Assembly: GCF_016862895.1 (NCBI RefSeq) | Contig: NZ_BONV01000025.1 | Location: 62,001 to 126,000, forward strand | DNA length: 64,000 nucleotides | From: Planotetraspora kaengkrachanensis | Lineage (GTDB): Bacteria > Actinomycetota > Actinomycetes > Streptosporangiales > Streptosporangiaceae | Direction: 5' to 3' | Shown: one piece after another, positions 23,441-50,653 of the stretch | Layout: every line of letters starts with the position of its first letter | Position numbering within the stretch: the first letter of the stretch is position 1 | Notes under the pieces: model-generated | What the model saw: the letters and a program-made list of their open reading frames with translations, nothing else | The model's database searches: none | Told to the model about the DNA's origin: nothing | Translations under genes and position numbers: made by a program

Positions 23441-23505
23441 TGCATGATCACGAACAATATCCTGGCTGGCCGGACCGACATTTCGCGAATCCGCGCACGA
23501 TCACG
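23441..23505 (+). repeat. Degenerate copy of the 52-53-bp TGCATGATCACG repeat
   Basis: TGCATGATCACGAAC at 23441-23455 is followed 53 bp on by GCACGATCACG (23495-23505), with CGCGAATCC between them as in the better copies at 40757, 41642 and 50484. It lies in the thrB-thrC gap. Only two units are recognisable and the spacer is diverged. Confidence 0.6.
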
Positions 23506-23551
23506 CCCGATTCGCGCAGGGCGTACGGCGCGACCACTCTGATGACGGGCG

Positions 23552-24610
23552 TCAGGCCAGCTCGAGAGCGGAAGCGGCCGCGAAGGCGTCGACGGGGATC
23601 GTCACCGGCGCCGGCGCACCGGAGATCGCCCAGTCGGGGTCCTTGAGCCCGTTGCCGGTCACCGTGCACACCACGCGCTGCCCGGGAACGAGCATCCCCT
23701 GCTCGTTGGCCTGCAGCAGGCCCGCCACGCTCGCGGCCGAGGCGAGCTCCACGAACACGCCCTCCTCCTGGGCCAGAAGCTTGTAGGCGGCGGCGATCTG
23801 GCGGTCGGTGACGGACTGGATGGCCCCGCTCGACTCGTCGCGCGCGGCCTCGGCGAGCCGCCACGACGCCGGGTTGCCGATCCTGATGGCGGTGGCGATC
23901 GTGTGCGGATGCGTGACCGGGGCTCCGATGACCAGGGGCGCCGCGCCGCTGGCCTGGAATCCCAGCATTCTGGGCCGCTTGGTGGCGATGCCCTCTTCCG
24001 CGTACTCCTTGTAGCCCATCCAGTAGGCCGAGATGTTGCCCGCGTTGCCTACGGGGATGCAGTGCACGTCCGGCGCGTCGCCGAGTTCGTCCACGATCTC
24101 GAAGGCGGCGGTCTTCTGGCCTTGGAGCCGGTGCGGATTGACCGAGTTCACCAGGGCGATCGGATAGTTCTCCGCCAGCTTCCTGGTCATCTCCAGGCAG
24201 TCGTCGAACGAGCCCTCCACCTGGAGCAGCTTGGCGCCGTGCACCAGGGCCTGGGCCAGCTTGCCCATCGCGATCTTCCCGCGCGGAACCAGGACGGCGC
24301 AGGTCAGGCCGGCCCGTACGGCGTAGGCGGCGGCGGAGGCGCTGGTGTTGCCCGTCGAGGCGCAGATGACCGCCTTGGCGCCCTCCTCGAGCGCCTTGCT
24401 GATCGCCACGGTCATGCCGCGGTCCTTGAAGCTGCCCGTCGGGTTGAGACCCTCGACCTTGAGATGGACGTCGCATCCGGTCAGCTGGGAGACGCGCCGG
24501 GCCGGCACGAGAGGCGTTCCGCCCTCGAAGAGGGTGACCACCGGCGTCGTCTCCGACACCGGAAGCCGGTCACGGTACTCCTCGATGAGGCCACGCCAAG
24601 CCCTGGACAT
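23552..24610 (-). CDS. thrC: Threonine synthase
   Basis: PLP enzyme converting O-phosphohomoserine to threonine. With the ATG at 24610 the product is 352 residues and begins [17 protein letters not shown], preceded by AAGGGAG. Lys62 in [11 protein letters not shown] is the PLP Schiff-base lysine, and [15 protein letters not shown] is the phosphate/cofactor region. The upstream neighbour is not hom, as it usually is, but the end of a glycosyltransferase gene 466 bp away, so thrC must have its own promoter. Confidence 0.96.
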
Positions 24611-25076
24611 GATTACTCCCTTCACGCGCCGCATACGCGTGCAACCTGGGGTATTGGCCACCGAGTCTACGGGCTTCCGCTCGCCATGTGGGAAGAATTG
24701 TCCAAGTACTGGACAGGGCCGGAACCGCCCAGGTCTCTCCACCACACTCAGCGGGTGAGGCCCCAGGAGCGCCGCTCCATGAATCGACGGCCGCGCCCGC
24801 CACCGCCCCCGGGAGCGACATCGCCGTCATCAAGGGCCTTGCGCCGGGCACTCAGAGTCGATACATGGCCAAAGTCCCGTTGTGCGCCGCCTCGCCCGAA
24901 AAGGTGGGCTTTGCCGTTATTCGCCGCACATTCCTGGTTCCAGTTTGCCAGGCGAGGTCGAGATCAGGCCCCGGGCCCTCGTAGATCATTAGGGTGACCG
25001 CGCGATGAGGGGTCGCGCCATCGACGTACCGGCGGGAGCCGGCGGGGAAATCGGCCCGCCGGCTCCCGCCGCCGCC
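24611..25076. other. 466-bp gap upstream of thrC at the border of the glycan island
   Basis: No coding sequence was recognised. It contains a strong stem at 25031-25070 (listed separately) and TGTCC-AAGTACT-GGACA (24699-24715), a 17-bp symmetric site about 90 bp upstream of thrC that could be an operator. The remainder shows no clear structure. It should hold the thrC promoter. Confidence 0.4.
25031..25070 (-). terminator. 16-bp hairpin after the first glycosyltransferase operon
   Basis: GGCGGGAGCCGGCGGG and CCCGCCGGCTCCCGCC form a perfect 16-bp stem with an 8-base loop, immediately beyond the stop of the 580-residue glycosyltransferase. It should insulate thrC from the island operon. Confidence 0.7.
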
Positions 25077-26819
25077 CTACTCCTGTCCGTCACCCGCCTG
25101 CTTGCCGTGCGACTGGTCACGAAGCAGGCTCCGAATACGGCGGAGGCCGCTTCGCGTGATGCGAGTGAGGCCATGGCCCTGCTTGAGCGCGGTGACCTGC
25201 TTGCGCAGGGCACCGACCTCGCGGCGAAGCTGCACCGCCTGGGTCCGCCAGCGCTTCGCCTCTTCACGGGCCTCGGTGACCTTGCCCTTGAGCCCTTCGG
25301 CCTCCTTGGTCAGCCTGGCCAGTTCCTTGGTCAGCCTGGCCACCTCACCCTGCAGAACCGATCTTTCCTGCTGCTGGCGATAGGTGGTCCTGCGATCGTC
25401 CGGGACAGTCGCGTCGACCGCCGGTAGCAGTCCGTAGGACTCCGGGTCCACCCACATCGACCCGTAGATCTCGGTCACGACCCCGTCGAGATCCTCCCCG
25501 TCCTCCGCCAGCATCTCGGCACGGGCGAAGGCCGCCGTCCGCTCCATGCGGGCGGCGACGATCCCGTCCGGCTGCTCGGCCAGGAAAACGGACACCAGGC
25601 CGAGGCCGCGCTCCGTCATCAGATCGGTCAGCTGGGCCAGGCCGTCCTCACCGGGGACCCAGCCCGAGGGCAGGCGCAGCACGAAAGGCGCCAGGCCCGG
25701 GCGTCCGCCGAGTCGCACCCGGGGTTCGGCGGCGTAGTGGCGGCGAACCAGCGCGAGGTCGCCGGGCGGCGTACCGCGCTCGTCTTCCAGTTCGTCCCAC
25801 GGTCCCCTCAGGACGACCGACACGTCGGGGATCGTCCCCGCCAGGACAGCGTCGACCACCGTCCGGACGTCCTCGTAGGAGGCGCCGGTCACGTCCGTCT
25901 CCACCTCGACGTACGGCACGAGCCACTGCCGGTTCGGATGGGTCCGCAGCGAACGGTGGTGCGGGACGTGGTCGGGAACGGACTCCTGGCCGTCACGCCC
26001 GCCGGACGTCTCCTGCCGCCTCGTTGAGGACCCCAGGCGATAGGCCGTGGCGACGGGCTCGGGAACGAACACCGCTCCGGCCTCGGACAGCCGGTATCCC
26101 ATCGCGGTGTCCAGGCCCAGGACGAATCCTCCGTCCGCTGAGCCGACAGCCTTGAGCAACATGGCGTCGACCGACGTCGACTCCCCCGTATAGAGCCGGA
26201 AGGCGTCGTGCGCGGCCGAACGAAGACCGTCGGTGCGCTCGACCAGGTCCACCACCCACGCGTCCGGTTCCGCGGGCTCGAACAACTTCGCCCGGTCGCC
26301 CGCCATGGCCACCTCGGGCGGCGCGGGCGACGCCGCCGTGGAGCGCAGGTCACCTGTGACGGCGAGGTAGGGGGCGAGGTGGTGCCAGCGCATGTGCGCC
26401 TCGATCGCCACCCGGTCCAGCACCACGTCGGAGTCGAGCCAGTGGACGACGTCGCCCCTGGCGGCCCGCAGCCCCGCGTCGCGCGCGCCGGCCAGGCCCC
26501 GGGTCTCACAGACGATCAGCCGGGTGTTCACATGGCGGATCTCCGGCAGGCGCACCGGCGGCTCGCTGCCGTCGCCGACGACGACGACCTCGACCAGTTC
26601 GGCCGGATAGCTCTGATCGGCCAGACCCGCGAGCGTGAGGTCGAGCTTCTCCTGACCGTCGCAGGCGGGAACGACGACACTCACCCGCATGTCGGGCGTC
26701 CACGCACCGATCTCGGGCGGCGTGAGGACCGAGTAGTCGTTCCCACGGATCCGGGGAATCACAGGAGTCACTCGCGGCGGCACAGCGGGCGCACCGGGGA
26801 GTCTCGGGAGGCGGTTCAC
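25077..26819 (-). CDS. GT2 family glycosyltransferase with C-terminal coiled coil (paralogue 1)
   Basis: A 580-residue protein. A GT-A fold begins near residue 44 (MRVSVVVPACDGQ) with the metal-binding DSD at about 129-131 in HWLDSDVVLDR. A middle domain of unknown type follows, then a heptad-rich coiled coil from about 477 to 545 (LTKELARLTKEAEGLKGKV) and a basic tail. The GTG at 26819 overlaps the preceding TGA by four bases (GTGA) and has GGAGGG upstream, so it was preferred to the ATG at 26858. It is closely similar throughout to the gene at 30842-32572. It likely adds sugars to a surface polymer; donor and acceptor are unknown. Confidence 0.88.
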   Translation of the reverse strand: MNRLPRLPGAPAVPPRVTPVIPRIRGNDYSVLTPPEIGAWTPDMRVSVVVPACDGQEKLDLTLAGLADQSYPAELVEVVVVGDGSEPPVRLPEIRHVNTRLIVCETRGLAGARDAGLRAARGDVVHWLDSDVVLDRVAIEAHMRWHHLAPYLAVTGDLRSTAASPAPPEVAMAGDRAKLFEPAEPDAWVVDLVERTDGLRSAAHDAFRLYTGESTSVDAMLLKAVGSADGGFVLGLDTAMGYRLSEAGAVFVPEPVATAYRLGSSTRRQETSGGRDGQESVPDHVPHHRSLRTHPNRQWLVPYVEVETDVTGASYEDVRTVVDAVLAGTIPDVSVVLRGPWDELEDERGTPPGDLALVRRHYAAEPRVRLGGRPGLAPFVLRLPSGWVPGEDGLAQLTDLMTERGLGLVSVFLAEQPDGIVAARMERTAAFARAEMLAEDGEDLDGVVTEIYGSMWVDPESYGLLPAVDATVPDDRRTTYRQQQERSVLQGEVARLTKELARLTKEAEGLKGKVTEAREEAKRWRTQAVQLRREVGALRKQVTALKQGHGLTRITRSGLRRIRSLLRDQSHGKQAGDGQE

Positions 26820-27904
26820 GAACCCTCCAGGATCCGAGTCGGACGGAATCCGCGCCACTGATTGGCCGAGCCTCGGATGAACTCGGAGAGCGGTGGCTGC
26901 CAGGTGTGCTGTGCTGTCGCGGACCGCCGGACCAGAAGGCCCATCCCGTGGGTCCGGTAGATGGTGCCGCCTGCCGCCTCGACCGCCCGGAGCAACCGGG
27001 TGTCACCCCCTTGGGGCACCGGCTGGAAACCGCCGATCTCCTGGAATGTGGCACGCTCCAGCATCAGGGTCGCGCCCGACACGAGGTCGGCCATGATCTC
27101 CGTGCGCCAGCGGCCCCTGCGGACCGTGATGTCCAGCGGTTCGAGGTAGTAGTACTCGGTGGGCATGCCGACCACGTCGGCCCCCGAATACTCCTTGGCG
27201 AGCAGCAGGTCCGACAGATGGTCCGGGCTGTACCAGTCGTCGTCATCCCATTTCGCGATGTAGCGGCCACTGGCCCGCTCGACCGCGGCGTTGATCACAT
27301 CGCCGAACACGGTCTCTCTCCCGAGCTCCACGACCTGGATCGGGAAGGGGAAGTCCCGTGCCTCCTGCCGTACGACCTCTGCGGGAAAGCCGTGAGCGGC
27401 GTAGACGACTTCCATGTCGACATGCCGCTGGCGGGCCAGCTGCGCCAGCGTGAAGGCCGTCAGCGCCGGCCTTCTGCTCGCCGCGATGACGCTGACCAGG
27501 CCGCGTTCACTCGTGTTGATCGAGCGCAGGAGCCCGTGGCGGCGCAGCCGCAGGCTGTGCTCTTCTCGCCGGAGGTCGGCCAGCGACGCGCCGGTGCTGT
27601 CGATCTCAGGCTCGAGCCATCGGGTGTCGGTGACGAGGTCCCTCAGCTCCGGATCGATCCAGTCGGGCGCCGCGGCCGAGTGCACCGGCACTCCGGCCGC
27701 TGCGAGCTGGTGAATGACGTCCAAGGAGGCGATGGAATGGGGCCATTCAATTCGAACTCCCCGAAGATCACGCAAACCGGCCACGTTCTCCTCGGTGAGC
27801 CCATCGGGGACGGGCGTTCCGGCGATGACCCACCGGCTCCCGTCCCAGCGGGCCTCCGCCATGTCCGCGCTCGGGGCGCGGACGAAGCCCTTAGGGCTGA
27901 TCAT
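26816..27904 (-). CDS. GT2 family glycosyltransferase with extra N-terminal domain
   Basis: A 362-residue protein. About 110 N-terminal residues have no recognised domain. A GT-A catalytic domain follows (LVSVIAASRRPALTAFTL) with the metal motif WDDDDWYS near residue 218 and a later GGFQPVPQGGDTRLLRA acceptor-side motif. The ATG at 27904 was chosen because GGAGG lies five bases upstream; a longer frame exists but is non-conserved. Its 3' end overlaps the next gene by GTGA, implying coupled translation. A collapsed copy of this gene occupies the same position before the second paralogue (32569-32712). Confidence 0.87.
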   Translation of the reverse strand: MISPKGFVRAPSADMAEARWDGSRWVIAGTPVPDGLTEENVAGLRDLRGVRIEWPHSIASLDVIHQLAAAGVPVHSAAAPDWIDPELRDLVTDTRWLEPEIDSTGASLADLRREEHSLRLRRHGLLRSINTSERGLVSVIAASRRPALTAFTLAQLARQRHVDMEVVYAAHGFPAEVVRQEARDFPFPIQVVELGRETVFGDVINAAVERASGRYIAKWDDDDWYSPDHLSDLLLAKEYSGADVVGMPTEYYYLEPLDITVRRGRWRTEIMADLVSGATLMLERATFQEIGGFQPVPQGGDTRLLRAVEAAGGTIYRTHGMGLLVRRSATAQHTWQPPLSEFIRGSANQWRGFRPTRILEGS

Positions 27905-28272
27905 GAAACCTCCACCGTCCATCACCTGCATGGCGCTCAATAAGAACCGCATTCTGGCATAGCGGGTCCAACCACACCCCGCCGACAACATGCACGAAAC
28001 AGCGCGAACTCGTAGGGGTCGCGGGGCGGCCACGCAAGCCTGAAGGGTTGGGCGCTGCCGCTCGACCCTCCAGAGGGCCGCCGCCGCAGCGGAGGAGGTG
28101 CCGGTGTCGCTCATGGCGACACAGATGTCCACGCCGCCAGGCGATTTACCGATTTCCCCTAGCTTCTCCCGCTCGTCTCCGCAGGCACTACCATTCCGGG
28201 GCATCCGGACACAGCAAGATCCGCCCCGGGAAGCACCGGGGGCGGCGAGGCCTCGGGGGGACGGAGAGACAG
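27905..28272. other. 368-bp divergent promoter region in the glycan island
   Basis: It separates the minus-strand glycosyltransferase pair from the plus-strand deacetylase. It contains the 17-bp box at 27943-27959 (listed separately). No further repeat or coding sequence was recognised; the minus-strand open frame across part of it lacks similarity to the duplicate locus and was not accepted. Confidence 0.4.
27943..27959 (-). promoter_or_regulatory. Conserved 17-bp box upstream of the glycosyltransferase pair
   Basis: AGAACCGCATTCTGGCA on the plus strand is identical at 32753-32769, and in both places lies 39-41 bp upstream of the first start codon of a glycosyltransferase unit. The flanking sequence has diverged, so the box may have been kept for promoter or regulator binding, although shared ancestry alone could also explain it. 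Confidence 0.5.
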
Positions 28273-29151
28273 ATGCTCGGGAAGATCCGATCAAGCCGGC
28301 TCAGAGCGCTGCTGGGAGTGGGCGGCCTGCTGGGAGCGAGCGGGATCGGCTGGGCCGCGCACGGAATGACGAGTCCCCCGCCGTCACCGGTCCCCCAGAT
28401 CACGGCACACACCCCGGCGAAGCCCGTCACAGTCGTCACACTGGGATTCGACGACGCGTATGCCGATCAGATGCAGGCGCTGCCGCTCCTGCGTGAGAAG
28501 CGGTTGTCCGCCACCTTCTACGTCATCAGCGGCGTGATCGGCCGAAAGGGGGTCATGACGTGGAAGCAGGTCGCCCAGGTGGCCGCGGCCGGCCACGAGA
28601 TCGGCGGGCACACCGTCGACCACCACCGGCTGAAGGGCCTGAGCGTGGCGCGACTCCGCCATGAGATCTGCGACGACCGCGTCACCCTCTTCAAGAAGGG
28701 CTACAAGCCGGTCTCGTTCGCCTACCCGCTGGGATCGTACGACGACAACGCCGCGGCGACCGTCCTCAAGTGCGGGTACAACAACGGGCGACTGACCAGC
28801 GGTCTCTACGGCAAGGGACCGTTCAGCGAGACCCTCCCGCCGGCGAACCCCTCCTTGATCAGGACGCGCAGCGCCGGCACCGCACCCGAGGACGTGGTCG
28901 CGAACATCGAGGCCGGCATCAAGGATGCGCAGGCGCACGGCGGCGGCTGGTACAACATCGTCCTTCACCACATCTGCGACACCTGCCGCACGGACTCGAT
29001 CTCGCGTGCCGACTTCATCAAGCTGCTGGCGTGGTTGCGCCAGAGCGTCGACGACGGCTCGATCATGATGCGGACGGCGGGGCAGGTCGTGGGCGGCCCG
29101 GTGCGCCCGCCGATCAGCGCGGCTGCGCTGACGGCGCAGAGCGCGCACTAG
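28273..29151 (+). CDS. Secreted polysaccharide deacetylase (NodB homology domain, CE4)
   Basis: A 292-residue protein with a basic N-terminus and hydrophobic stretch ALLGVGGLLGASGIGWAA (residues 12-29), a signal peptide or membrane anchor. The NodB domain shows catalytic Asp60-Asp61 in TLGFDDAYADQ, the metal-binding HTVDH at 113-117, FAYPLGSY at 149-156 and the histidine motif IVLHHIC at 229-235. It should remove N-acetyl groups from a cell-wall or surface glycan, fitting its glycosyltransferase neighbours. The ATG at 28273 was chosen because GGAGAG precedes it and the signal peptide begins there. Confidence 0.9.
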   Translation: MLGKIRSSRLRALLGVGGLLGASGIGWAAHGMTSPPPSPVPQITAHTPAKPVTVVTLGFDDAYADQMQALPLLREKRLSATFYVISGVIGRKGVMTWKQVAQVAAAGHEIGGHTVDHHRLKGLSVARLRHEICDDRVTLFKKGYKPVSFAYPLGSYDDNAAATVLKCGYNNGRLTSGLYGKGPFSETLPPANPSLIRTRSAGTAPEDVVANIEAGIKDAQAHGGGWYNIVLHHICDTCRTDSISRADFIKLLAWLRQSVDDGSIMMRTAGQVVGGPVRPPISAAALTAQSAH

Positions 29152-29420
29152 CGGACGGCGGGGCACGTCGCGCCGAACCGCCCGCGCACGTCCGGCACGC
29201 CGACGGGCACGGCCGGCCGGCCTCTGACGGCAGGCACGTTCCCCACGTCATCGAAGATCGGAAATCGACGCCAAGACGGCCTGATCATCGACTCGACGAG
29301 GAGAATTCGCGGACGCTAAGGTTGCCGTACCATTCGCCCGTTTTCGGCGTAATGGAGGACTTATACGTCGAGATTTCGCCGTCTGGCGCGTTTCGACCTC
29401 GCCACTTCAGGGGCCATAAA

Positions 29421-30746: not shown

Positions 30747-30778
30747 GCAACCGGGAGGAGCGCTTCCCGGGAAAGAGA

Positions 30779-30810
30779 ACGGGTGACACCCCGCTGGGGG
30801 TGTCACCCGT
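30779..30810. terminator. Bidirectional 14-bp hairpin between convergent island genes
   Basis: ACGGGTGACACCCC and GGGGTGTCACCCGT form a perfect 14-bp stem with a four-base loop, followed on the plus strand by TTTACTT. It lies between the plus-strand PP-loop gene and the minus-strand glycosyltransferase and should stop both. Confidence 0.85.
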
Positions 30811-30841
30811 TTACTTAGGGCCGGTCACTTCCTTGAGCCGG

Positions 30842-38458: not shown

Positions 38459-40711
38459 GGTGACGGGCACCTGTGCCCGCGCCGCCCGCCGCGCGGGGAT
38501 CAGGGCGACCAGCAGCGTCGCCCCGATCGCGACGAGCAGGGCCCCGGCGAGCATCCCCGGCGTGGGAGCCCGGCCGATTCCCGCCCCCACCCCGCTCCCG
38601 CGGCCCTCCAGGTCGATCAGGCCCTTCGACAGGAACGCGCCCGCGGCTCCGCCGAGCACCACACCGGCCATCGCGACGAGCCCGGTGCCCGTCACCAGGG
38701 TGGCCATGACCTGCCGCGGGGTCAGGCCCATCGCCTTCAGCACGGCCAGGTCGAGCAGGTGATCGCGCAGGCCGAGAGCGCTCGCCGTCAACAGGTTCGC
38801 CAGTCCGATCAGAGCCAGGACGGCGACCAGCGCCACGATGATGACGCGGATGACCGACAGCCGGTCGGCCGGGTTGACCGCCTGGTCCACTTCGAGTGCC
38901 TGCGACTGCAACCGCGCGCGCACCTCGGCGGCGTCGGCGCCCGGTCGCAGAACCAGGCTGTAGAACTGCGGCGGCCTGGCGTCCTTGGCCGCCAGGCTGT
39001 CGACGCCGAACGAGAGCACCTCGCCGTCCTGTTCCGGCTCGATCACCCTGCCGACGATCTTGACGATGAGCGGCGTGCCCCCGATGGTCATGCGGACCCG
39101 GTCGCCGATGCGCAGCCCGAGCAGGTCGAGCAGGCCCTGCCCGGCCACGGCCTCGCCGCGGTCCCGGAACATCCTGCCCTCCACCACCGGGAACGGGTAC
39201 GGGTCGGAGGACAGGCCGAGCGCGCGGGTGCGCACCGTCCTCGTCTGCCAGGGTACGAGGGCGTCCAGCTCCACCCCCGGATAGGCGGTCACGACGTCGG
39301 GGTCGGCCATCACGCGGACGAGCGCCTCGCTCGCCGTCAGGTCGCCCGGCCGTACGGACAGGGCTGCGGCCTGGCCCACCTGCTCCGGATGGCGGCTGAA
39401 CCCGTCGAGAGTGGCCCAGCAGCCCAGCCCGATCGTGATCATCATCATGGGGATGGCCACGCCGGTCAGCGTGAGGACGGCGGAAGCGGGACGGGTGAAG
39501 GCGTCCCTCGCCCCGAGGACCAGGGCGGGCGGGAGCCGTACGAGGAGGGCGACCCTGGCCAGCCGCGACAGGCGGCCGTGCGGAGGCGCCGCGGGGGCCG
39601 CGGGGATGGGCGGCGTCGCACCGCCCCGCCAGGCGGGCAGCCAGACCGCGACCAGCACCACCAGCGCCGTGCCCGCCGCGATCGCGACGAACGGGCCGGA
39701 CGACAGCGGCACGACCACGGTGTCGGAGAGCGCGTAGGCCGTGATGACGCGTCCGGCGACGAGTCCGAGCGCGATGCCGAGCAACCCCAGCGTGCCGTGC
39801 TCGGCGACGAGCATGCGGGTCACCTGTTCCCGGGTGAACCCGAGCGACTTCAGCGTGGCGATGTCGCGGAGCTGGGTGAGCACCCGGCCGCCGGTGGCGT
39901 TGGCGACGGCGAGGGCGGCGGCGACCAGCCCGGCCAGGCCGAACAGGGCGAGCAGCAGGCCGAGCAGCCGGTTGTCGAGCTCCATGGAGGCCCGGACCTC
40001 ACGCCAGGTGGAGACCCGCTGGACCTGGTTGCGCAGCGTGATGACGGCCTGCTGCACGACGATGTCGGTGTAGCCGGCGTCGGCCAGCCGAAGGCCCGTC
40101 ACGGTCTCGGTGCGGCCGGGCGCGGGTTCGACCATGGTGAGTGTCGAGGAGAGGGTCCAGGCGAGCCCCGGAGTCCACTCGGGATAGAAGCCCTGGTCGC
40201 CGCTCTCGGCCAGGCCCGCCACGGTCAGCGTGTGCGTGGCGCCGTTCAGTCCGGTGACGGGGAACGGGCTGCCGGGGTGGAGCCCCAGCGCTTTGGCGAA
40301 CGACTGCTCGACCACGACGCCGTCGGGGTGAAGCGCGTCGAGCCAGCGCCCTTCCCGCAGGAGCGGCCGGGCGACGGAGGGGAGGGCCGCCGTCGTCTCC
40401 TGGAGGGCGATCGGGACCTTCCTGCCGTGGTCCGCGAGCGTGGCCGGAGCGCTGCGGTAGGGCCCGGCGACGTCGGTGACCCCGCCCAGCGCCCGGAGCG
40501 CAGGGACGTTGGGTGCGCCCTTGGTGTGGATCCAGACGTGGGCGCCCCGGCCTCGCTCGAACAGCCCCCGCCACGGGTTGGTGCCGTCCTCGAGCAGGGT
40601 GGCCGCCGTGATGAGGGCGGTGACGATCCCCGCGACCGCGATGACGGTGAGCAGAGCCTGCCCCCGGCGCGCCCGGAGGTCGGCCCGCACCCACCTGACC
40701 TCAGCCCGCAC
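38450..40711 (-). CDS. ABC transporter permease, FtsX/MacB type
   Basis: A 753-residue membrane protein with two FtsX-like permease halves. An N-terminal helix (ALLTVIAVAGIVTALITAATL) leads to an extracytoplasmic domain; a three-helix block near residues 260-360 is followed by a second helix, extracytoplasmic domain and C-terminal three-helix block. This is the usual layout for exporters of antimicrobial peptides or lipids. The GTG at 40711 gives VRAEVRWVRADLRARRG; the longer frame upstream merely translates an 18-bp tandem repeat. It works with the ATPase at 40880-41638, probably under the PadR gene. Confidence 0.9.
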   Translation of the reverse strand: MRAEVRWVRADLRARRGQALLTVIAVAGIVTALITAATLLEDGTNPWRGLFERGRGAHVWIHTKGAPNVPALRALGGVTDVAGPYRSAPATLADHGRKVPIALQETTAALPSVARPLLREGRWLDALHPDGVVVEQSFAKALGLHPGSPFPVTGLNGATHTLTVAGLAESGDQGFYPEWTPGLAWTLSSTLTMVEPAPGRTETVTGLRLADAGYTDIVVQQAVITLRNQVQRVSTWREVRASMELDNRLLGLLLALFGLAGLVAAALAVANATGGRVLTQLRDIATLKSLGFTREQVTRMLVAEHGTLGLLGIALGLVAGRVITAYALSDTVVVPLSSGPFVAIAAGTALVVLVAVWLPAWRGGATPPIPAAPAAPPHGRLSRLARVALLVRLPPALVLGARDAFTRPASAVLTLTGVAIPMMMITIGLGCWATLDGFSRHPEQVGQAAALSVRPGDLTASEALVRVMADPDVVTAYPGVELDALVPWQTRTVRTRALGLSSDPYPFPVVEGRMFRDRGEAVAGQGLLDLLGLRIGDRVRMTIGGTPLIVKIVGRVIEPEQDGEVLSFGVDSLAAKDARPPQFYSLVLRPGADAAEVRARLQSQALEVDQAVNPADRLSVIRVIIVALVAVLALIGLANLLTASALGLRDHLLDLAVLKAMGLTPRQVMATLVTGTGLVAMAGVVLGGAAGAFLSKGLIDLEGRGSGVGAGIGRAPTPGMLAGALLVAIGATLLVALIPARRAARAQVPVTAR

Positions 40712-40756
40712 GCCCACCCCCGTGATCACGCCCACCCCCGTGACCACGCCCACTCC

Positions 40757-40873
40757 CGTGATCATGCACGGATTCGCGGAGCGCGGCCTGACCTGCGCCG
40801 ACCCATGCCGTGATCATGCACGGGCTCGTGATCATGCCGTCCGAGCTGCGGCGTCGCTGTTCGTGATCATGCA
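40757..40873 (-). repeat. TGCATGATCACG repeat element, inverted copy downstream of the ABC ATPase
   Basis: On the minus strand three TGCATGATCACG cores (40862-40873, 40809-40820, 40757-40768) are spaced 52-53 bp, with a near-core at 40827-40837. By hand alignment the reverse complement matches 41642-41758 at roughly 88% of positions. It starts seven bases from the ATPase stop codon. Short 18-bp repeats of related sequence continue to the permease start. Confidence 0.88.
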
Positions 40874-40879: not shown

Positions 40880-41638
40880 TCATCCATGCAGCTCGACGAT
40901 GTCGCCCGCCGTACCGCCTGGACGGCGCTGGAGCCTGGCGATGGGCGCGTCGTCGACGATCTGGCCGTCGAGGAGGCTGACGACGCGGTCCGCCATGCTC
41001 GCGACCCTGGCGTCATGGGTGACGAGCACGATCGTCTGCCCCTGCCGATGGACCTTGCCCAGCAGCTTGAGGACGTCGCGGGTGTTGCGGCTGTCGAGAT
41101 TGCCGGTCGGTTCGTCGGCGAGGAGCAGGCGCGGCTGGTTGGCGAGCGCCCGGGCGAGCGCGACGCGTTGCTGCTCGCCGCCGGAGAGCTGGCCGGGCGC
41201 GGCGCCCGCCCGTTCCTCGAGGCCGAGTTCCGCCAGCAGGTATTCACGCCGCTCCCTAGCGTGCTTCGGCGACGCCCCGCCGAGAAGGGCGGGCAACTCC
41301 ACGTTGTCGGCCACGGTCATGTTGGTGACCAGATTGAAGAACTGGAAGACGAATCCGACCTTCTGCCGCCTGAGCACCGCCCAGCCGCTCTCCGAGAGCG
41401 TGTCGGCCCGCTTGCCGTCCAGCCAGATCTCGCCGCTGGTCCGGGTCTCCAGCCCGCCGAGCATGTGGACGAAGGTGGATTTTCCCGACCCGGACGGGCC
41501 CATGATCGCGACGAACTCCCCCGGTTCGACGACGAGATCGACCCCGCGTACGGCCGGCACCGGCAGGCCGCCGGTCTGGTAGATCTTCACGAGGCCGGTC
41601 GCCCTGATCACGGGGGTGCTGGTCACCGCGGGCCACAT
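40880..41638 (-). CDS. ABC transporter ATP-binding protein, LolD/MacB type
   Basis: A 252-residue nucleotide-binding protein with Walker A GPSGSGKST near residue 48, the Q-loop VFQFFNLV, the signature LSGGEQQR, Walker B LLLADEPTGNLD and the H-loop LVTHD. The NLD after Walker B is typical of the LolD/MacB/FtsE group that pairs with FtsX-type permeases, here the next gene downstream. The ATG at 41638 lacks a clear ribosome site; a GTG at 41626 is an alternative. The gene is bracketed within a few bases on each side by inverted copies of a 120-bp repeat. Confidence 0.93.
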   Translation of the reverse strand: MWPAVTSTPVIRATGLVKIYQTGGLPVPAVRGVDLVVEPGEFVAIMGPSGSGKSTFVHMLGGLETRTSGEIWLDGKRADTLSESGWAVLRRQKVGFVFQFFNLVTNMTVADNVELPALLGGASPKHARERREYLLAELGLEERAGAAPGQLSGGEQQRVALARALANQPRLLLADEPTGNLDSRNTRDVLKLLGKVHRQGQTIVLVTHDARVASMADRVVSLLDGQIVDDAPIARLQRRPGGTAGDIVELHG

Positions 41639-41641
41639 CCC

Positions 41642-41758
41642 TGCATGATCACGAACGGCGTCGCCGCAGGTCGTACGGAATGATCGCGAATCTGTGCATG
41701 ATCACGGCATGAGTCGGCGCAGGTCAGGCGGCGATCCGCGAATCCGTGCATGATCACG
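41642..41758 (+). repeat. TGCATGATCACG repeat element upstream of the ABC ATPase
   Basis: Cores at 41642-41653, 41695-41706 and 41747-41758 (spacing 53 and 52 bp) with a diverged ATGATCGCG half-copy at about 41680. The unit is the inverted partner of 40757-40873. It begins three bases from the ATPase start codon, so any ribosome site of that gene would lie inside the repeat. Confidence 0.88.
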
Positions 41759-41801: not shown

Positions 41802-42308
41802 TCAGGTCAGGTCCTCCTGGCAACGTTCGAGCCAGTCCAGGTCGGCTTGGAGGTGGAGCATGGCGCCCTCGATGAGCAGGCGGGCGACGCGGTTCCCCGG
41901 GTCCGTGCGCTCGGCCAGTTCGCCGAGGTCTCGCATCAACGACAAATAATGCCTGCGCTGCCGGTTGACCAGCGCCATCCGGTCGGCGATGCCGGTCAGC
42001 GGGGCCAGCACCAGCTTCATGAAGAACTCGTCCCGCACGCGCGGGCCTTCGGTGGGTTCGTCGACCCAGGCCTCCAGCGCCTCGCGGCCGGCGGCGGTGA
42101 GGTAGTAGACCTTCTTGTTGGGCCGGTTCGACTGCTCGACGTCGACGGCCCGGACGAACCCGTCCTTCTCCAGACGCCCCAGCGTCACGTAGATCTGGCC
42201 GATGTTGGGTGAGGGATATGCGCTGCCGAACGTCACCTCGAGCGCCTGTTTGAGCTCGTACCCGTGGGCAGGTTCCTTTGCCAGGAGTGCCAGCAACGGC
42301 AGCCGCAC
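41802..42308 (-). CDS. PadR family transcriptional regulator
   Basis: A 168-residue protein. The N-terminal winged helix (LPLLALLAKEPAHGYELKQAL ... GQIYVTLGRLEKDGFV) is the PadR signature, and the C-terminal helical part is the dimerisation domain of the subfamily 2 (Vir-like) type. The GTG at 42308 has GGAGGTGG upstream. PadR genes are very often co-transcribed with an ABC exporter they repress, and the ATPase and permease follow on the same strand. Confidence 0.92.
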   Translation of the reverse strand: MRLPLLALLAKEPAHGYELKQALEVTFGSAYPSPNIGQIYVTLGRLEKDGFVRAVDVEQSNRPNKKVYYLTAAGREALEAWVDEPTEGPRVRDEFFMKLVLAPLTGIADRMALVNRQRRHYLSLMRDLGELAERTDPGNRVARLLIEGAMLHLQADLDWLERCQEDLT

Positions 42309-42372: not shown

Positions 42373-42453
42373 GTCGCCGCGAAGCCCCCGGGCGACCGCC
42401 GAAGCAGTTACCGGAGCGTTACGGATCCAGCCGTTGACTCCCACATTATCGCT

Positions 42454-42468: not shown

Positions 42469-42514
42469 GCATCTACCTAACACGTATGTAACTACGACTT
42501 AATCCGGAGGTCAC

Positions 42515-43777: not shown

Positions 43778-43780
43778 ATC

Positions 43781-45091: not shown

Positions 45092-45103
45092 GGAGACGCG
45101 GCC

Positions 45104-46510
45104 GTGACCGAACGGTTGGACGGCCCGCAGGCCCCCGGCGGCGACATCCCTGCCGCCGGGGCCACCTCCGGCCCGATAGAGACCCGATCCGCGCCGGCTG
45201 CGGCCGCGCGCGTGGACAGCAGCACCCCCCGTCGGCTCGGACCCTCCCCCAGGATGGCGGCGCTCTTCCTGCTGCCCGCCGTCCTGCTCCTCGCCGCGTG
45301 GGTGGTCTACCCGATCATCTACTCGATCTTCAGGAGCCTGTACGACTCCGCCGGGAACCGCTTCGTCGGCCTGGGGAACTACGGCTCGATCTTCACGGAC
45401 TCCGCCACGCTGACCACGATCAGGAACAACGTGATCTGGGTCGTGGTGGCGCCGCTGATCGTCACCGTGCTCGGCCTCATGTTCGCGGTGCTGACCGAGC
45501 GCATCCGCTGGGCGACGGCGTTCAAGCTCATCCTGTTCATGCCGATGGCCGTCTCCCTCCTCGCGGCCGGAGTGATCTTCCGTCTCGTCTACGAGCAGGA
45601 CCCCGACAAGGGCGTGGCCAACGCGGTGATCACCGTCGTGCACGACACGTTCTCCTCCAGCGCCGGGTATCCGGGCGCGCGGCCGCGTGAGAACGACCAG
45701 GCGCCCGCGGCCGTACAGAACGGCGCCGTGGTGACCAAGCAGCAGGTCCAGGACGGCCAGCCGGTGCTCCTCCCGCTGGTCGGTCTTCCTCCCGACGTCG
45801 TCAAGGACGCCGCTCCCGCGAAGGCGGCTCCGGCCGGAGGTCTGAGCGGCACGGTCTGGCTCGACGTCGTCCGGGGCGGCGGCGGCACGCTCAACCAGAT
45901 CGACCCGCAGGAGAAGGGCCTGGCCGGGATCACGGTCGAGGCGGTCTCCGGCGGTGTGGTCAAGGGCACCACCGAGACGACCGCCGACGGCGGCTTCCAC
46001 TTCACCGGTCTGCCCGCGGGCTCCTATCTCGTACGGCTCCCGCAGTCGAACTTCCAGGCGCCCTTCAACGGGATCACCTGGCTCGGCCCCGGCCTGATCA
46101 CGCCCGCGATCATCGGCGCGTACATCTGGGTGTGGGCCGGCTTCGCCATGGTGCTGATCGCGGCCGGGCTGTCGGCGATCCCCCGCGACGCCCTCGAGGC
46201 GGCCCGGATCGACGGCGCGACCGAGTGGCAGGTGTTCCGGCGGATCACCGTGCCCCTGCTCTCCCCGGTCCTGCTCGTCGTCTTCGTCACGATGGTCATC
46301 AACGTGCTGAAGGTGTTCGACCTGGTGTTCATCATCGCGCCGGGGTCGGTGCAACCACAGGCCAACGTGATCGCGCTCGAGATGTGGCGGGTCTCGTTCG
46401 GCGGCGGCGGCAACCAGGGCATGGGCAGCGCCCTCGCCATCTTCCTGCTGGTGCTGGTCCTCCCGTTCATGATCTTCAACATCCGCCGGTTCAGGAGGGA
46501 CGAGCGATGA
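45104..46510 (+). CDS. Sugar ABC transporter permease (MalF-like) with an inserted Cna-B/SdrD-like domain
   Basis: A 468-residue permease. Membrane helices lie at about 52-75, 108-130 and 140-162, then an extracytoplasmic insert at about 185-325, then the remaining helices and the ATPase-docking EAA loop at 365-385 (EAARIDGATEWQVFRR). Residues 247-312 (SGTVWLDVV ... GLAGITVEAV ... GGFHFTGLPAGSYLVRL) look like the beta-sandwich of SdrD B-repeat or Cna-B proteins. Typical permeases of this class are about 300 residues. GTG start with GGGAG upstream. The stop overlaps the second permease by ATGA. Confidence 0.92.
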   Translation: MTERLDGPQAPGGDIPAAGATSGPIETRSAPAAAARVDSSTPRRLGPSPRMAALFLLPAVLLLAAWVVYPIIYSIFRSLYDSAGNRFVGLGNYGSIFTDSATLTTIRNNVIWVVVAPLIVTVLGLMFAVLTERIRWATAFKLILFMPMAVSLLAAGVIFRLVYEQDPDKGVANAVITVVHDTFSSSAGYPGARPRENDQAPAAVQNGAVVTKQQVQDGQPVLLPLVGLPPDVVKDAAPAKAAPAGGLSGTVWLDVVRGGGGTLNQIDPQEKGLAGITVEAVSGGVVKGTTETTADGGFHFTGLPAGSYLVRLPQSNFQAPFNGITWLGPGLITPAIIGAYIWVWAGFAMVLIAAGLSAIPRDALEAARIDGATEWQVFRRITVPLLSPVLLVVFVTMVINVLKVFDLVFIIAPGSVQPQANVIALEMWRVSFGGGGNQGMGSALAIFLLVLVLPFMIFNIRRFRRDER

Positions 46511-47394
46511 CAACCCTGACCGAACCGGGGTCCGCCCAGCGGATCGAGCGCGGTCTCCTCGGGCGCGTGGCCGACCGCGTCGGCGGCGGCGTGGTGCAGG
46601 TCGTCCTCGTCCTGGTGGCGGTGTTCTGGCTCGTGCCGACGCTGGGCCTGCTCGTGGTGTCGCTGCGCGGCGAGGCCCAGAACAACGCCTCCGGCTGGTG
46701 GACCCTGTTCACCAAACCCGCCGAGATCACCTTCCAGAACTACTCGAGCCTGCTGGCGGCCGGCTTCAGCTCGTCGTTCTGGAACACCGTGCTCATCACG
46801 GTCCCCGCGACGGTGCTGGTCATCGGCATCGCGGCGATGGCGGCCTACGCCTTCGCCTGGATCGAGTTCCCCGGCAGGGACGCGGTGTTCCTCGTCGTCA
46901 TCGCCCTGCTGGTGGTGCCGGTCCAGATCGCGCTCATCCCGATCGCCAAGCTGTACGGATTTCTCGGGATATTCGGCTCGATTACAGGAGTCGTGCTGTT
47001 CCACGTGGCGTTCGGCCTGCCGTTCGCCATCTTCCTGCTGCGCAACTTCTTCGTGGGCATCCCCCGGGAGCTGCTTGAGGCGGCCAGGATGGACGGCGCG
47101 CAGGAGTGGCGGATCTTCGCGACCGTGGTGTTCCCGCTGGCCAAGCCCGCGATCGCGTCGCTCGGCATCTTCCAGTTCCTCTGGGTCTGGAACGACCTGC
47201 TCGTCGCCCTGGTCTTCGCCGACACCGAGAACCAGCCGATGACCAAGGCACTGCAATCTCAGATGCGACAGTTCGGGACCAACGTGGACATCCTCGCGCC
47301 AGGTGCGTTCCTGTCGCTCATCATCCCGCTCGTCCTGTTCTTCGGCTTCCAGCGGTATTTCGTCCAAGGGCTGCTCGCGGGCTCCGTGAAATAG
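46507..47394 (+). CDS. Sugar ABC transporter permease (MalG-like)
   Basis: A 295-residue permease of normal length with about six membrane helices and the EAA loop EAARMDGAQEWRIFATVVFP. The ATG at 46507 overlaps the stop of the first permease by four bases, so the two are translationally coupled. The open frame upstream of that ATG lies inside the first permease and was rejected. No ATPase gene follows; in actinobacteria a shared MsiK-type ATPase usually serves such importers. Confidence 0.94.
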   Translation: MTTLTEPGSAQRIERGLLGRVADRVGGGVVQVVLVLVAVFWLVPTLGLLVVSLRGEAQNNASGWWTLFTKPAEITFQNYSSLLAAGFSSSFWNTVLITVPATVLVIGIAAMAAYAFAWIEFPGRDAVFLVVIALLVVPVQIALIPIAKLYGFLGIFGSITGVVLFHVAFGLPFAIFLLRNFFVGIPRELLEAARMDGAQEWRIFATVVFPLAKPAIASLGIFQFLWVWNDLLVALVFADTENQPMTKALQSQMRQFGTNVDILAPGAFLSLIIPLVLFFGFQRYFVQGLLAGSVK

Positions 47395-47421
47395 CCCCTC
47401 ATCATGACCGCACGGAAAGGG

Positions 47422-47462
47422 CCCGGATGCGCGCTTCACGGGGGGAAAAGCGCGCATCCGGG
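47422..47462 (+). terminator. Perfect 15-bp hairpin after the sugar importer
   Basis: CCCGGATGCGCGCTT and AAGCGCGCATCCGGG flank an 11-base loop beginning CACGGGGGG, 27 bp past the permease stop. Terminator of the importer operon. Its stem and loop resemble the hairpin at 47607-47645. Confidence 0.8.
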
Positions 47463-47606
47463 CTAGGCCCCATTCTGTACGGCTAGAGCCGCTGATGTCA
47501 CCGCATTGACAAGTTTGTCCTCGATCTCATGCCAACTCCTGATATTTCGCCGAGTTCCTGCCATGTCGTAGTGGTGATGCGTACAGGGGCCGGCATGACC
47601 CCGGAC

Positions 47607-47645
47607 ATCGGATGCCCGCTTCACGGGGGTAAGCGGGCATCCGAT
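47607..47645 (+). terminator. Second perfect 15-bp hairpin before ung
   Basis: ATCGGATGCCCGCTT and AAGCGGGCATCCGAT flank a 9-base loop CACGGGGGT and are followed by CTTTTGT, a good intrinsic terminator. It lies 52 bp before the ung start and shares stem and loop sequence with 47422-47462. The roughly 140 bp between the two hairpins holds no recognised gene. Confidence 0.75.
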
Positions 47646-47697
47646 CTTTTGTCTCCGGCGGCATCGGCACCCGCGAAAGCCGATAGAGTTCGCGACC

Positions 47698-48375
47698 ATG
47701 GCAGGGCGTCCGTTGCACGAAGTAGTGGAAGCCGGATGGGCCACGGCCCTCGAACCCGTCGCCGAGCGGATCTCCGCAATGGGCGACTTCCTCCGGCAGG
47801 AGATAGCGGAAGGTCGGCAGTACCTTCCAGCGGGGGCGAACGTCCTCCGCGCGTTCCAGCAGCCTCTCGGCGAGGTCCGCGTGCTGATCGTGGGGCAGGA
47901 TCCCTATCCCACGCCCGGCCACCCGGTCGGCCTGAGCTTCTCGGTGGCGCCCGATGTCCGGCCGATCCCCGCGAGCCTGGTCAACATCTACAAGGAGTAC
48001 ATGGCCGACCTCGGCTATCCCCCGCCGACCAACGGCGACCTCACTCCGTGGACCGAGCAGGGCGTGTTCCTGCTCAACAGAGTCCTGACGGTGATGCCGG
48101 GCAAGCCCGCCTCCCATCGGGGCAAGGGCTGGGAGGAGGTCACCGAGCAGGCCATCAAGACGCTCGCCGCCCGCGGCGGCCCGCTCGTGGCGATCCTGTG
48201 GGGCCGTGACGCCCGTAATCTCCGGCCGATGCTCGGTCAGGTGCCGTGCATCGAGTCGGCCCACCCGAGTCCCCTGTCCGCGCGCAGCGGCTTCTTCGGC
48301 TCCCGGCCGTTCAGCAGGGCGAACGAGTTGCTCGCCGAACAGGGCGCCCCGCCCGTCGAGTGGAAACTGCCCTGA
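47698..48375 (+). CDS. ung: Uracil-DNA glycosylase, family 1
   Basis: Excises uracil from DNA to start base-excision repair. The 225-residue product has the water-activating motif [17 protein letters not shown], with the catalytic Asp in QDPY, and the C-terminal leucine-loop motif [18 protein letters not shown]. Length is normal for the family. It is followed after 24 bp by a small acidic protein gene. Confidence 0.96.
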
Positions 48376-48399
48376 CCGGCTGCCGATAGGATCCCGACC

Positions 48400-48750
48400 A
48401 TGAGCGATACAACGGACACGGGACGCTACCTGCGTCTCACCGTCGACCTCGTCGTCGAGGTCATGGACGTGGGCGCCCTGCAGGCGGCGGCTCTCGCGGA
48501 GATCCGCGACCCCGAGACGGAACTTGAGCAGGACGAGCGTCAAGAGCAGATCGATCTGGTCAACACCGATGACACCGGCGCGGCGGCCCTTCAGTGGCTG
48601 ATCGAGCCGGATCATGTTCTTGGTCTGGTCGAGCACCTCAGCGACATCGAGCCGCGAGAGGCCATGCTCGGTGTCGAGCCGTCGGACGGCGTCCTCGAGG
48701 ACGAGGGCGACGAGGACGACCACCACGACCACGACGGTCACCAGCACTGA
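48400..48750 (+). CDS. Small acidic protein with Asp/His-rich tail
   Basis: A 116-residue protein of unknown function. The body is acidic (LTVDLVVEVMDVGALQAAAL) and predicted mixed alpha/beta. The last 20 residues are almost entirely Glu, Asp and His (DEDDHHDHDGHQH), suggesting divalent metal binding. No signal peptide. It lies 24 bp after ung on the same strand and converges on the MOSC gene. Confidence 0.7.
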   Translation: MSDTTDTGRYLRLTVDLVVEVMDVGALQAAALAEIRDPETELEQDERQEQIDLVNTDDTGAAALQWLIEPDHVLGLVEHLSDIEPREAMLGVEPSDGVLEDEGDEDDHHDHDGHQH

Positions 48751-48765
48751 CCCGCCCGCCAGGGC

Positions 48766-49314
48766 TCACACAGGTTCGAGGCGGTGGAGGGGTCCGGCCG
48801 GGAGCTCGACGACGATCGGGTCTCCGGGCCGCACCTCACCGCCATCGACGACGATCCCCATGATCCCGGCCTTCCTGACCAGGCCTCCGTCCTCGTCCCG
48901 GTCCAGAACCGCCTTCAACAGCCCGTTCTGGAAGCCGTCGAGCTGCAGGCAGGGATTGCGCAGGCCGGTGATCTCCACCACAGCCGTTTCACCCAGATGA
49001 AGCCGCGCGCCCACGGGCAGCCCGAGAAGGTCGAGCCCGCGCGTCGTGACGTTCTCCCCCATGTCCCCCGCCCGTACGGCGAAGCCCGCCGCGCGCAGTT
49101 CGTCGTGCAGCTCCTCGTGGATCAGATGCACCTGCCGCAGATTGGGCTGACCGGGGTCGCGGGCCACCCGTGATCGGTGTTTGACCGTGACCCCCATGTG
49201 GGCGTCGCCCTCCACCCCGAGGCCGGCCAGCAGCCGGATGACGTCCTGGTCGGGTTTGCTGAAGGTGTGAGTCCCACTGAGGCTCACCGCCGCCACCACC
49301 GCACTGCGTGCCAT
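48766..49314 (-). CDS. MOSC domain-containing protein
   Basis: A 182-residue protein consisting of a single MOSC beta-domain. GLGVEGDAHMGVTVKHRSR and LRQVHLIHEELHDEL are the conserved opening, and RNPCLQLDGFQNGLLKAV holds the invariant cysteine that in MOSC proteins binds a molybdenum cofactor sulfur ligand. Stand-alone MOSC proteins are linked to sulfur transfer or reduction of N-hydroxylated compounds; the exact substrate is unknown. The ATG at 49314 has GAGGAG upstream. Confidence 0.92.
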   Translation of the reverse strand: MARSAVVAAVSLSGTHTFSKPDQDVIRLLAGLGVEGDAHMGVTVKHRSRVARDPGQPNLRQVHLIHEELHDELRAAGFAVRAGDMGENVTTRGLDLLGLPVGARLHLGETAVVEITGLRNPCLQLDGFQNGLLKAVLDRDEDGGLVRKAGIMGIVVDGGEVRPGDPIVVELPAGPLHRLEPV

Positions 49315-49455
49315 CCGCTCCTCCTCGTTGCGAGACGAGCATCATCTCCCTCACGGCCCCGGGCTCGCGAACGGCTCACATCCACGGGACGTACGGCACG
49401 GCGGGAAAGTGCCGCACGCTCGCATCTCCGGCCGTCCGTGGCTTCACCACGGGCG

Positions 49456-50337
49456 TCATGCGACGCGGAGCGCGGGCGTACGGCTCAGCCATTCGCTCAC
49501 GGTCCCCTCGAAGCCCTCCGGAGGGCCCACCCTCAGGCACGACCTGTCGGCCGCGTCGCGCGTCAGCCGTACGTGGAACGGCTCGCGCCCGAGTTCCGGA
49601 GAGCCGGAGAAGACGGCGAAGTCGGTGCCGTCCAGCCGCAGGTGATCACCGATCGTGCGGCACCGGGAGCCGGGGTCACCGCCGAGCCAGGAGAGATGAC
49701 CGGCGAGCAGCCGGTGCGCGACGGTGCGGAGCACGTTGACCGTGCACAGGCGGTGGGCGCAGGCCGCGCCGTCCAGCATGACCTCCGGGAGCCCGAACCG
49801 CGCGAGGCCACGCGTCGTCACCCGCAGGCACGTGCAGACATCGGTGCCGTCCGGATCCCACGGCGGGCACGAGCGGTCGTCGTCGAGGTCGACGGTCCAG
49901 CCGAGCCAGTCGTCACCCAGGCGGAAGTCCTGACGTTCGCCCGGGCAGGCGGCGCAGTGGTAGACGGCGGAACCGGTCAGCCTGTCCACGATCACCCCGC
50001 GGTAGGCCTCCGCCACACCGCGCGCCGCGGCGCGGGCGACCTGGGCGGCCTCCGGCTGCGCCTCGACCGGCGCGGTGCTGGAGACCACGACATGATGGCG
50101 GGCTCTGGAGACCCGTCTCAGGTCGTCGTCCTTGATGCCCGTTCGCCGCCAGAGTGAGCGGTCGGCCCTAACGGCCTCCAGTTCCAGCCGCGGCGTGCCG
50201 AGCACTTCCATCGCTTTGCGCCGGTGCGGCTTCCCCATGCGCCACGGGACGATCGACGACAGCTCCACAGGCGCACGGTCCACGGTCACGACGAACACCG
50301 ACGTCGTCTCCGCCGGAACGGAATAGGTGATCTGCAT
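49456..50337 (-). CDS. Hypothetical cysteine-rich protein
   Basis: A 293-residue protein, family not recognised. It has no signal peptide or membrane helix. Cysteines cluster in YHCAACPGER, DVCTCLRV, AACAHRLCTV and SRCRTIGDH (about residues 135-235), enough for one or two metal sites. The N-terminal 110 residues are a basic, Val-rich region containing SSIVPWRMGKPHRRKA. The ATG at 50337 has a strong AGGAGG site. It is monocistronic between the MOSC gene and a repeat region. Confidence 0.7.
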   Translation of the reverse strand: MQITYSVPAETTSVFVVTVDRAPVELSSIVPWRMGKPHRRKAMEVLGTPRLELEAVRADRSLWRRTGIKDDDLRRVSRARHHVVVSSTAPVEAQPEAAQVARAAARGVAEAYRGVIVDRLTGSAVYHCAACPGERQDFRLGDDWLGWTVDLDDDRSCPPWDPDGTDVCTCLRVTTRGLARFGLPEVMLDGAACAHRLCTVNVLRTVAHRLLAGHLSWLGGDPGSRCRTIGDHLRLDGTDFAVFSGSPELGREPFHVRLTRDAADRSCLRVGPPEGFEGTVSEWLSRTPALRVA

Positions 50338-50483
50338 GGGTCCTCCTGGGGAATCTCGGAAGCCCCAAGATGGACGACCCGCCGGGTCCGCCTCCCGCCA
50401 GAAATCGGTTCTGTGGAAAACACCGGTTGTCCACAGGCGACCACGCCCGTGGGTGGCTCCGCGACAACGCCGGCCACCTCCCG

Positions 50484-50653
50484 TGCATGATCACGAACAG
50501 GATGACGCCAGGTCGAGCGGCATGATCGCGAATGTGCGCATGATCACAACATGGGAAAGCGCAGGTCAGGCGGTGCTTCGCCGAACCTGTGCATGATCAC
50601 GCCGGGGGTGGGGCAGGTCAGGCGGTGCTTCGCCGAACCTGTGCATGATCACG
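50484..50653 (+). repeat. TGCATGATCACG repeat element, four units
   Basis: Cores at 50484-50495, about 50537-50548 (diverged), 50590-50601 and 50642-50653, spaced 53, 53 and 52 bp. The last two units are nearly identical (shared GGGCAGGTCAGGCGGTGCTT and CGCCGAACC). The final unit supplies the stop codon (TCA on plus, 50649-50651) of the acetyltransferase gene. Confidence 0.88.

Follow-up and report, generated by a model that had tools for sequence, protein, structure and literature searches.

Directional repeat arrays at gene 3' ends in Planotetraspora as possible hairpin-free, protein-bound transcription terminators

In the usual textbook account, a bacterial transcript is ended either by a hairpin or by the factor Rho. 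What else may stand at the end of a bacterial gene is the question raised by a stretch of 64,000 nucleotides from Planotetraspora kaengkrachanensis (contig NZ_BONV01000025.1, positions 62,001 to 126,000; the whole stretch is called the window here), which carries at four loci tandem arrays of the 12-bp core TGCATGATCACG. A sequence-only reading of the window had described these loci as a new dispersed repeat family with a period of 52-53 bp, close to five turns of the helix, and had suggested a protein-binding array. The reading favoured here, which falls a little short of being probable, is that the arrays may be polar, protein-bound, hairpin-free transcription-termination elements at the 3' ends of genes.

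It is clear that the repeat family is real and far larger than first reported. Ten exact copies of the core are distributed over the four loci (at 23441; at 40757, 40809 and 40862 on the minus strand; at 41642, 41695 and 41747; and at 50484, 50590 and 50642), two further cores with two mismatches (23494 and 50537) keep the register, and the in-register core-to-core spacings are all 52 or 53 bp, so that the earlier description of a shared 12-bp core at this period is borne out. When up to two mismatches are allowed the window holds 20 matches against 4.8 expected, a number attained by none of 100 shuffles. Two near-cores stand out of register, at 40827 (one mismatch) and 50519 (two mismatches), each 35 bp or 3.33 turns from its neighbouring core. 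The P. kaengkrachanensis genome as a whole (the source genome) contains 612 exact copies (299 + 313) and 1,036 with at most one mismatch, as compared with no exact copy and seven with at most one mismatch for the core pattern read backwards, and exact copies occur in all five genomes of the genus examined, in numbers from 242 to 940. A scan of the genome and its relatives, proposed with the first description, has thus produced many further copies rather than none, and the label of a new dispersed repeat family fits an element with about 1,000 copies genome-wide and a selectively conserved core.

The 53-bp unit, as derived from 151 units of the source genome, consists of the core at positions 0-11, a CAGGTC-like box at 25-30, CGAA at 45-48 and a preferred YYG at 50-52, the rest being mostly free in sequence; the spacer motifs noticed earlier correspond to the two boxes and are real, but they are not fixed strings. 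Among 696 distinct core spacings of at most 75 bp in the Planotetraspora DNA examined, 665 fall in the range of 45-61 bp, which includes 608 spacings of exactly 53 bp and 660 of 52-54 bp. Adjacent units are identical at 41% of free columns, random pairs at 33%, and agreement above 70% is seen in 26 of 363 adjacent pairs; because adjacent units agree so little, recent duplication does not account for most of them, and what is held is seemingly the length. Few in-register neighbours of a core are half-decayed, with 143, 57, 6, 2 and 3 of them carrying 0, 1, 2, 3 and 4 mismatches, respectively (counted up to four).

Orthologous places in other Planotetraspora DNA were available for 14 of the 43 arrays in the source-genome pieces. 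In the 14 alignments, at least three of which are poor, identity between species is 93% in the core (n = 995), 64% in the spacer (2,788) and 84% in the flank (3,985); the cores compared were chosen in one species, and neutral positions so chosen should resemble spacers. A contig of P. mira picked by place carries cores at 10/10 orthologous places, the other four loci having been picked for holding cores and being uninformative on loss, and the number of units often differs between orthologous arrays (for example, three versus five). Because the core is conserved and the 53-bp period is kept while the spacers diverge, the core and, in Planotetraspora, the spacing look selected. No RNA covariation or excess pairing of complementary boxes is detectable in 608 units, so that an RNA hairpin formed by the complementary boxes CAGGTTCG and CGACCTG was rejected, and Rfam gave no match in the window at the gathering score. 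Since the spacing is fixed without RNA structure, DNA rather than RNA is probably the acting form. The idea of a protein-binding array is strengthened by the conserved core, the 53-bp spacing held without sequence conservation and the lack of an RNA hairpin, the binding protein itself being putative.

Genes were called with a simple codon-usage script, and a run was defined as at least two cores. Only 8/243 cores in the source-genome pieces and 17/763 in other Planotetraspora DNA are well inside called genes. DNA uptake sequences (DUS/USS) are present in many copies within genes as well as between them, and were rejected as a model on these counts. The gene next to the outer end of a run has its 3' end towards that run in 45/60 cases in the source genome and 122/178 elsewhere in the genus, at a median distance of 16 and 15.5 bp and within 30 bp in 33/45 and 90/122 cases; directional sites directly downstream of genes, as looked for in a roadblock terminator, are therefore the usual arrangement, although the polarity is a tendency. 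The association with gene ends, which the earlier reading had proposed to examine, is in this way well supported. By comparison, 15 and 56 runs face a gene start instead, and only 3/15 and 4/56 of these are within 30 bp of it. The called gene ends exactly at a TGA inside the terminal core in 7/45 and 25/122 runs, and, read along the gene, the coding sequence and its stop are usually followed by CGTGATCATGCA, 41 bp, a second CGTGATCATGCA, and onward. Convergent gaps hold 29/68 runs and make up 130/753 gaps, whereas divergent gaps hold 6/68 runs and make up 132/753 gaps, counts in which about half of the pieces had been picked for holding arrays. Convergent genes often have two arrays back to back. 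The arrays do vary in orientation, as first reported; because back-to-back arrays follow two convergent genes, this variation is largely accounted for by gene direction, most arrays standing on gene 3' ends.

Placement of this kind might also be expected of an RNA element, a repeat in the 3' untranslated region that protects the end of the messenger RNA through an RNA-binding protein or through processing. The repetitive extragenic palindrome (REP) at malE-malF of Escherichia coli protects an mRNA end, and an array between potD and potB resembles that case. The lack of any hairpin or covariation in the units, and the difficulty of explaining a fixed 53-nt spacing without structure on RNA, make this explanation highly improbable, even though the arrays lie mostly beside gene ends.

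Hairpins are scarcer at gene ends with arrays. The comparison covered ends followed by 80 bp or more of free space, and a hairpin counted as strong if, within the first 100 nt, its energy was 6 kcal/mol below that of shuffles. Strong hairpins follow 12/151 array ends and 141/561 core-less ends (p 1e-6), and 13/39 ends at which the nearest core has the opposite orientation, in pooled sets that count orthologous ends from several species and overlap slightly in their P. mira loci; T-tailed terminators follow 3/151, 62/561 and 3/39 of the same ends. The source genome alone gives 5/44 array, 69/262 core-less and 5/11 opposite-orientation ends with strong hairpins, and in six further genomes (three of the same family and three others) the counts are 1/36 for array ends and 36/141 for core-less ends. 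In gene sense the array ends are weakly structured, with C at 0.363 and G at 0.281 versus 0.343 and 0.349 at core-less ends. This composition could be taken to mean that the arrays are Rho-dependent terminators, in which a C-rich, unstructured array transcript serves as the Rho loading site and the core would be either incidental or a site of pausing, and a rho gene does lie beside the thrB-like gene of the window. The excess of C over G is modest, however, and to our knowledge Rho sites need neither an invariant 12-mer nor a fixed 53-bp spacing, in contrast to a core that is 93% identical and spacing that is held. Rho loading as the whole explanation is accordingly quite unlikely.

Orthologous loci allow a more direct comparison of the two kinds of gene end, at the same gene, and arrays stand at two loci where many relatives have a hairpin. 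At proS, 18 of 30 loci were read and 17 are without an array; a hairpin of -25 kcal/mol or better follows the stop in 13/17 of the array-less genomes and one of -20 or better in 15/17. Genome G068 has the hairpin and G186, of the same genus, has an array, and G037 has an array and a fold of only -12.1. At trpD/Lrp, an Lrp gene could be recognised at 17 of 30 loci, 15 of which were counted as array-less (three of these with one loose core match). The source genome has its array on the Lrp side only, where the fold is -13.6, and a hairpin of -30.8 on the trpD side; among the array-less genomes the Lrp side has a hairpin of -25 or better in 8/15 and of -20 or better in 12/15.

Such replacement of one end by another within a genus would also suit a selfish or neutral repeat that accumulates at gene 3' ends because it is least harmful there, as would the high copy number, the patchy distribution (14/297 genomes of the family, see below) and the changing number of units between orthologous arrays. 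The obvious comparison is with the REP and bacterial interspersed mosaic elements (REP/BIME) of enterobacteria and pseudomonads, which likewise occur as hundreds of dispersed intergenic copies, mostly at 3' ends and in convergent gaps with some in operons. REPs are palindromes spread by a Y1 (RAYT) transposase. The array unit differs in having no hairpin covariation, a polar tandem arrangement and a fixed period, in a genome without a Y1_Tnp match (PF01797 gave 0 matches in the source genome and matched in 5/14 control genomes), and a REP/RAYT origin was rejected for lack of both a palindromic hairpin unit and a Y1 transposase match. Retention of all ten mapped arrays in the P. mira contig, conservation of core and spacing but not of spacers, the small number of half-decayed cores in register and an orientation that tends to follow the gene all speak against a selfish element in general, which is very unlikely.

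The favoured reading is that a sequence-specific DNA-binding protein would occupy the repeated core (in gene sense CGTGATCATGCA) immediately past the stop codon, at intervals that in Planotetraspora are 53 bp or about five helical turns. The bound array would be a directional roadblock at which transcription of the gene leading into it comes to an end. A factor such as Rho may afterwards release the RNA polymerase; where two genes converge, each would be served by one of two back-to-back arrays, and the arrays would take over the role played by hairpin terminators elsewhere. The reading draws on copy number, fixed spacing, core conservation, 3'-end position, fewer hairpins, the swaps at two loci and occurrence in other families; from these sequence features we infer protein binding, the polymerase stop and its one-way action.

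One candidate for the binding protein, by motif only, is a relative of Gbn, a protein of Streptomyces that binds the 6-bp motif GATC(A/T)T at thousands of sites (PMC9239103). The gene-strand core CGTGATC(A/T)TG of Planotetraspora and of genus g65 contains this motif, and the fixed 53-bp spacing suits a phased protein array. An alternative to termination is a nucleoid or boundary element, in which phased sites for a Gbn-like nucleoid-associated protein insulate neighbouring units or organise the chromosome and take no direct part in termination, and the arrays that lie within apparent operons are in keeping with it. In the part of the Gbn study available, the sites described lie in promoters and within gene clusters, a single region frequently having more than one, and regular arrays are not described, in contrast to about 12 fixed core positions in regular arrays at 3' ends (PMC9239103). 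Taken alone, a nucleoid element leaves the position at the stop codon, the orientation and the replacement of hairpins unexplained, and it is judged unlikely. The ARG boxes bound by Streptomyces ArgR bear a partial likeness to the repeat, in that CTTTGCATGGTCATGCGTAA holds TGCATG-TCA; they are imperfect palindromes of up to 20 nt, single or in contiguous pairs, whereas the core is asymmetric (TGCA-N-GATCACG), and they were set aside (PMC5839063).

Several observations weigh against termination by a directional roadblock. By the simple gene caller 15/60 and 56/178 runs do not face a 3' end, and one-direction arrays in tandem gaps follow the polarity rule in only 27/40 cases (12/17 in the source genome and 15/23 elsewhere). 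In the six further genomes 0/11 opposite-orientation ends have strong hairpins, and the Lrp end of G003 has an array plus a hairpin of -22.7. The rank tests on hairpin energy minus shuffles are weaker than the counts, with p values of 0.07 in the source genome, 0.14 in the P. mira contig and 0.0002 at the named loci for array versus none, and of 0.09, 0.37 and 0.12, respectively, for array versus wrong orientation, which slightly lowers the odds of the terminator reading. A fold of -20 is ordinary at gene ends in this DNA, and because the median of array-less ends is already -18 to -23 only the stronger hairpin values are telling. The shortage of hairpins is also partly expected if arrays merely fill the space after a stop. 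Finally, arrays are found within likely operons, namely thrC-thrB and padR-ATPase-permease in the window and potD-[array]-potB at locus L144 (genes named by eye from translations); this would imply either partial termination, downstream promoters of their own, or a function other than termination. The L144 array (6013-6394) is two-sided and splits an apparent polyamine-type ABC transporter operon, separating the binding-protein gene from the permease genes, again by names assigned by eye.

The element is not restricted to Planotetraspora. At least 40 GATCACG pairs 40-55 bp apart occur in 14/297 sampled genomes of the family, comprising the five of the genus and G062, G086, G037, G186, G120, G193, G215, G054 and G028, and most other family genomes have about 5 to 30 such pairs, many of them coding. 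Arrays of the exact core are also present in other families, in G329, G388 and G327 and in small numbers in G535, G447 and G370, most of the 394 genomes sampled from the class being without them. The relation to gene ends recurs in these distant genomes: in G329 a 3' end is faced by 17/27 runs, with distances such as 7, 16 and -5 bp, four arrays of G388 stand 11-13 bp after a stop and others do not, and 4/4 clusters of G327 face a 3' end, three of them at 19-37 bp. The remaining 10/27 runs of G329 do not face a 3' end and belong with the observations against the favoured reading. It is possible, and proposed here tentatively, that several actinomycete lineages use a third kind of terminator besides hairpins and plain Rho sites, in which arrays of a directional 12-bp site at the stop would carry a protein of their own that bars the way to RNA polymerase coming from one side, and that sets of gene ends would switch between hairpin and array.

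The spacing varies among these lineages. A period of 52-54 bp is found in G086 (genus g34) and G186 (g65), 41 bp or about 3.9 turns in G054 (g51), 22 bp or about 2.1 turns in G327, chiefly 34 bp, followed by 44 or 53-55 bp, in G388, and mainly 37-39 bp in G329, which, alone among G327, G388 and G329 and in small samples (24 units in G329), shows no 10.5-bp phase, a further point against the favoured reading. The near-five-turn period read from the window thus holds for Planotetraspora, g65 and g34, and the constancy of spacing on which the sequence-only reading had staked the family is a property of Planotetraspora (608/665 spacings of 53 bp), some other lineages using other spacings; alignment of cores on one face of the helix as a general rule is ruled out by G329. 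In G327 one locus (L388, 9861-10269) has 19 cores exactly 22 bp apart, 19 bp after a gene, in a striking local expansion.

Variants of the unit are also seen. Among the places listed for g65, the unit nearest the gene often takes a fixed form, TGCGACAAACTACAAGATCACG, that differs from the inner units (for example at G120:C60:434058, G193:C33:288376 and G186:C1:647396), as if the first site had a role of its own. In G053, G092, G091 and G028 the core often occurs, among the places listed, as close inverted pairs, and at L177, L180 and L196 (G092, G028) it forms the ends of inverted pairs with long stems, such as CGTGATCATGCAGTTGTTCGC ... GCGAACAACTGCATGATCACG; this form is possibly a hairpin version, or one like a miniature inverted-repeat transposable element (MITE), of the same element. 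What looks like a separate repeat is an identical 54-bp stretch flanked by GATCACG on three contigs of G127 (C38:58, C93:157479 and C95:136209). Single cores in array-less genomes do not represent one ancestral site, as 15/20 places read lie in called genes, four of these 15 being the same coding stretch (FTPARVIMQDFTGVP), and the place in G135 holds an inverted pair that lies between genes and close to a stop. A viral origin was likewise rejected, the viral_contigs collection containing no stretch with two exact cores 32-57 bp apart, and a search of plasmids with one 141-bp array gave no match.

Intrinsic terminators occupy the same place just after stops, and the arrays differ from them by few strong hairpins and almost no T-tail (3/151). 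The roadblock terminators of eukaryotic ribosomal RNA genes (the Sal box bound by TTF-I, and Reb1) likewise consist of repeated short sites that bind a protein directionally, placed beyond the end of a transcription unit; the bacterial arrays differ in following many genes, and in them the protein action is one that we infer. MIRU of Mycobacterium tuberculosis is also a 53-bp unit in intergenic tandem arrays; it carries overlapping start and stop codons within operons and is set apart by its description, since in the present unit nothing is fixed beyond the core, the two short boxes and the spacing. The tested features of REPs, intrinsic terminators and Rfam families are lacking in the array element, and among the matches listed in open-access literature on actinomycete repeats, convergent ends, roadblocks and terminators no paper on the repeat was found. 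Hundreds of copies of one directional site mark gene ends in one genus, with more in unrelated families. If they end transcription, they would constitute a new class of terminator, would explain unannotated 3' regions in high-GC actinomycetes and could provide compact insulating terminators for heterologous expression; if they do not, a phased protein array fixed to gene ends would still be an unusual form of bacterial chromosome marking.

In the window itself the four arrays and their neighbouring genes are arranged as listed below. The names thrC-like and thrB-like derive from Pfam families and from gene order with rho, which adjoins the thrB-like gene.

Arrays and adjoining genes in the window (positions counted from its first nucleotide)
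Feature	Position	Strand	Remarks
Short array	23441..23505	+	Weakest of the four loci; one exact and one two-mismatch core, 53 bp apart; between thrC-like and thrB-like genes
thrC-like gene (PALP family)	23552..24610	-	Stop at 23552, 46 bp from the 23441 array
thrB-like gene	start 23421	-	Other side of the 23441 array
Array	40757..40873	-	Three exact cores (spacing 52, 53) and a one-mismatch core at 40827; between ABC ATPase and FtsX-like permease genes
ABC ATPase gene	stop at 40880		Adjoins the 40757-40873 array, whose orientation is opposite to the rule for a gene ending there
Array	41642..41758	+	Three exact cores (53, 52); 3 bp from the called ABC ATPase start
padR-like regulator gene	41802..42308	-	Stop 43 bp from the 41642 array
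Array	50484..50653	+	Three exact cores and one in-register two-mismatch core
GNAT acetyltransferase gene	50649..51176	-	5-bp overlap with the gene-proximal core (50642-50653); stop codon inside the core

Beside the array at 40757, at the called start of the permease gene, lies a tandem repeat of about 18 bp (approximately CCCACTCCCGTGATCACG; window positions 40700-40770), which is present in three imperfect copies and includes part of a core.

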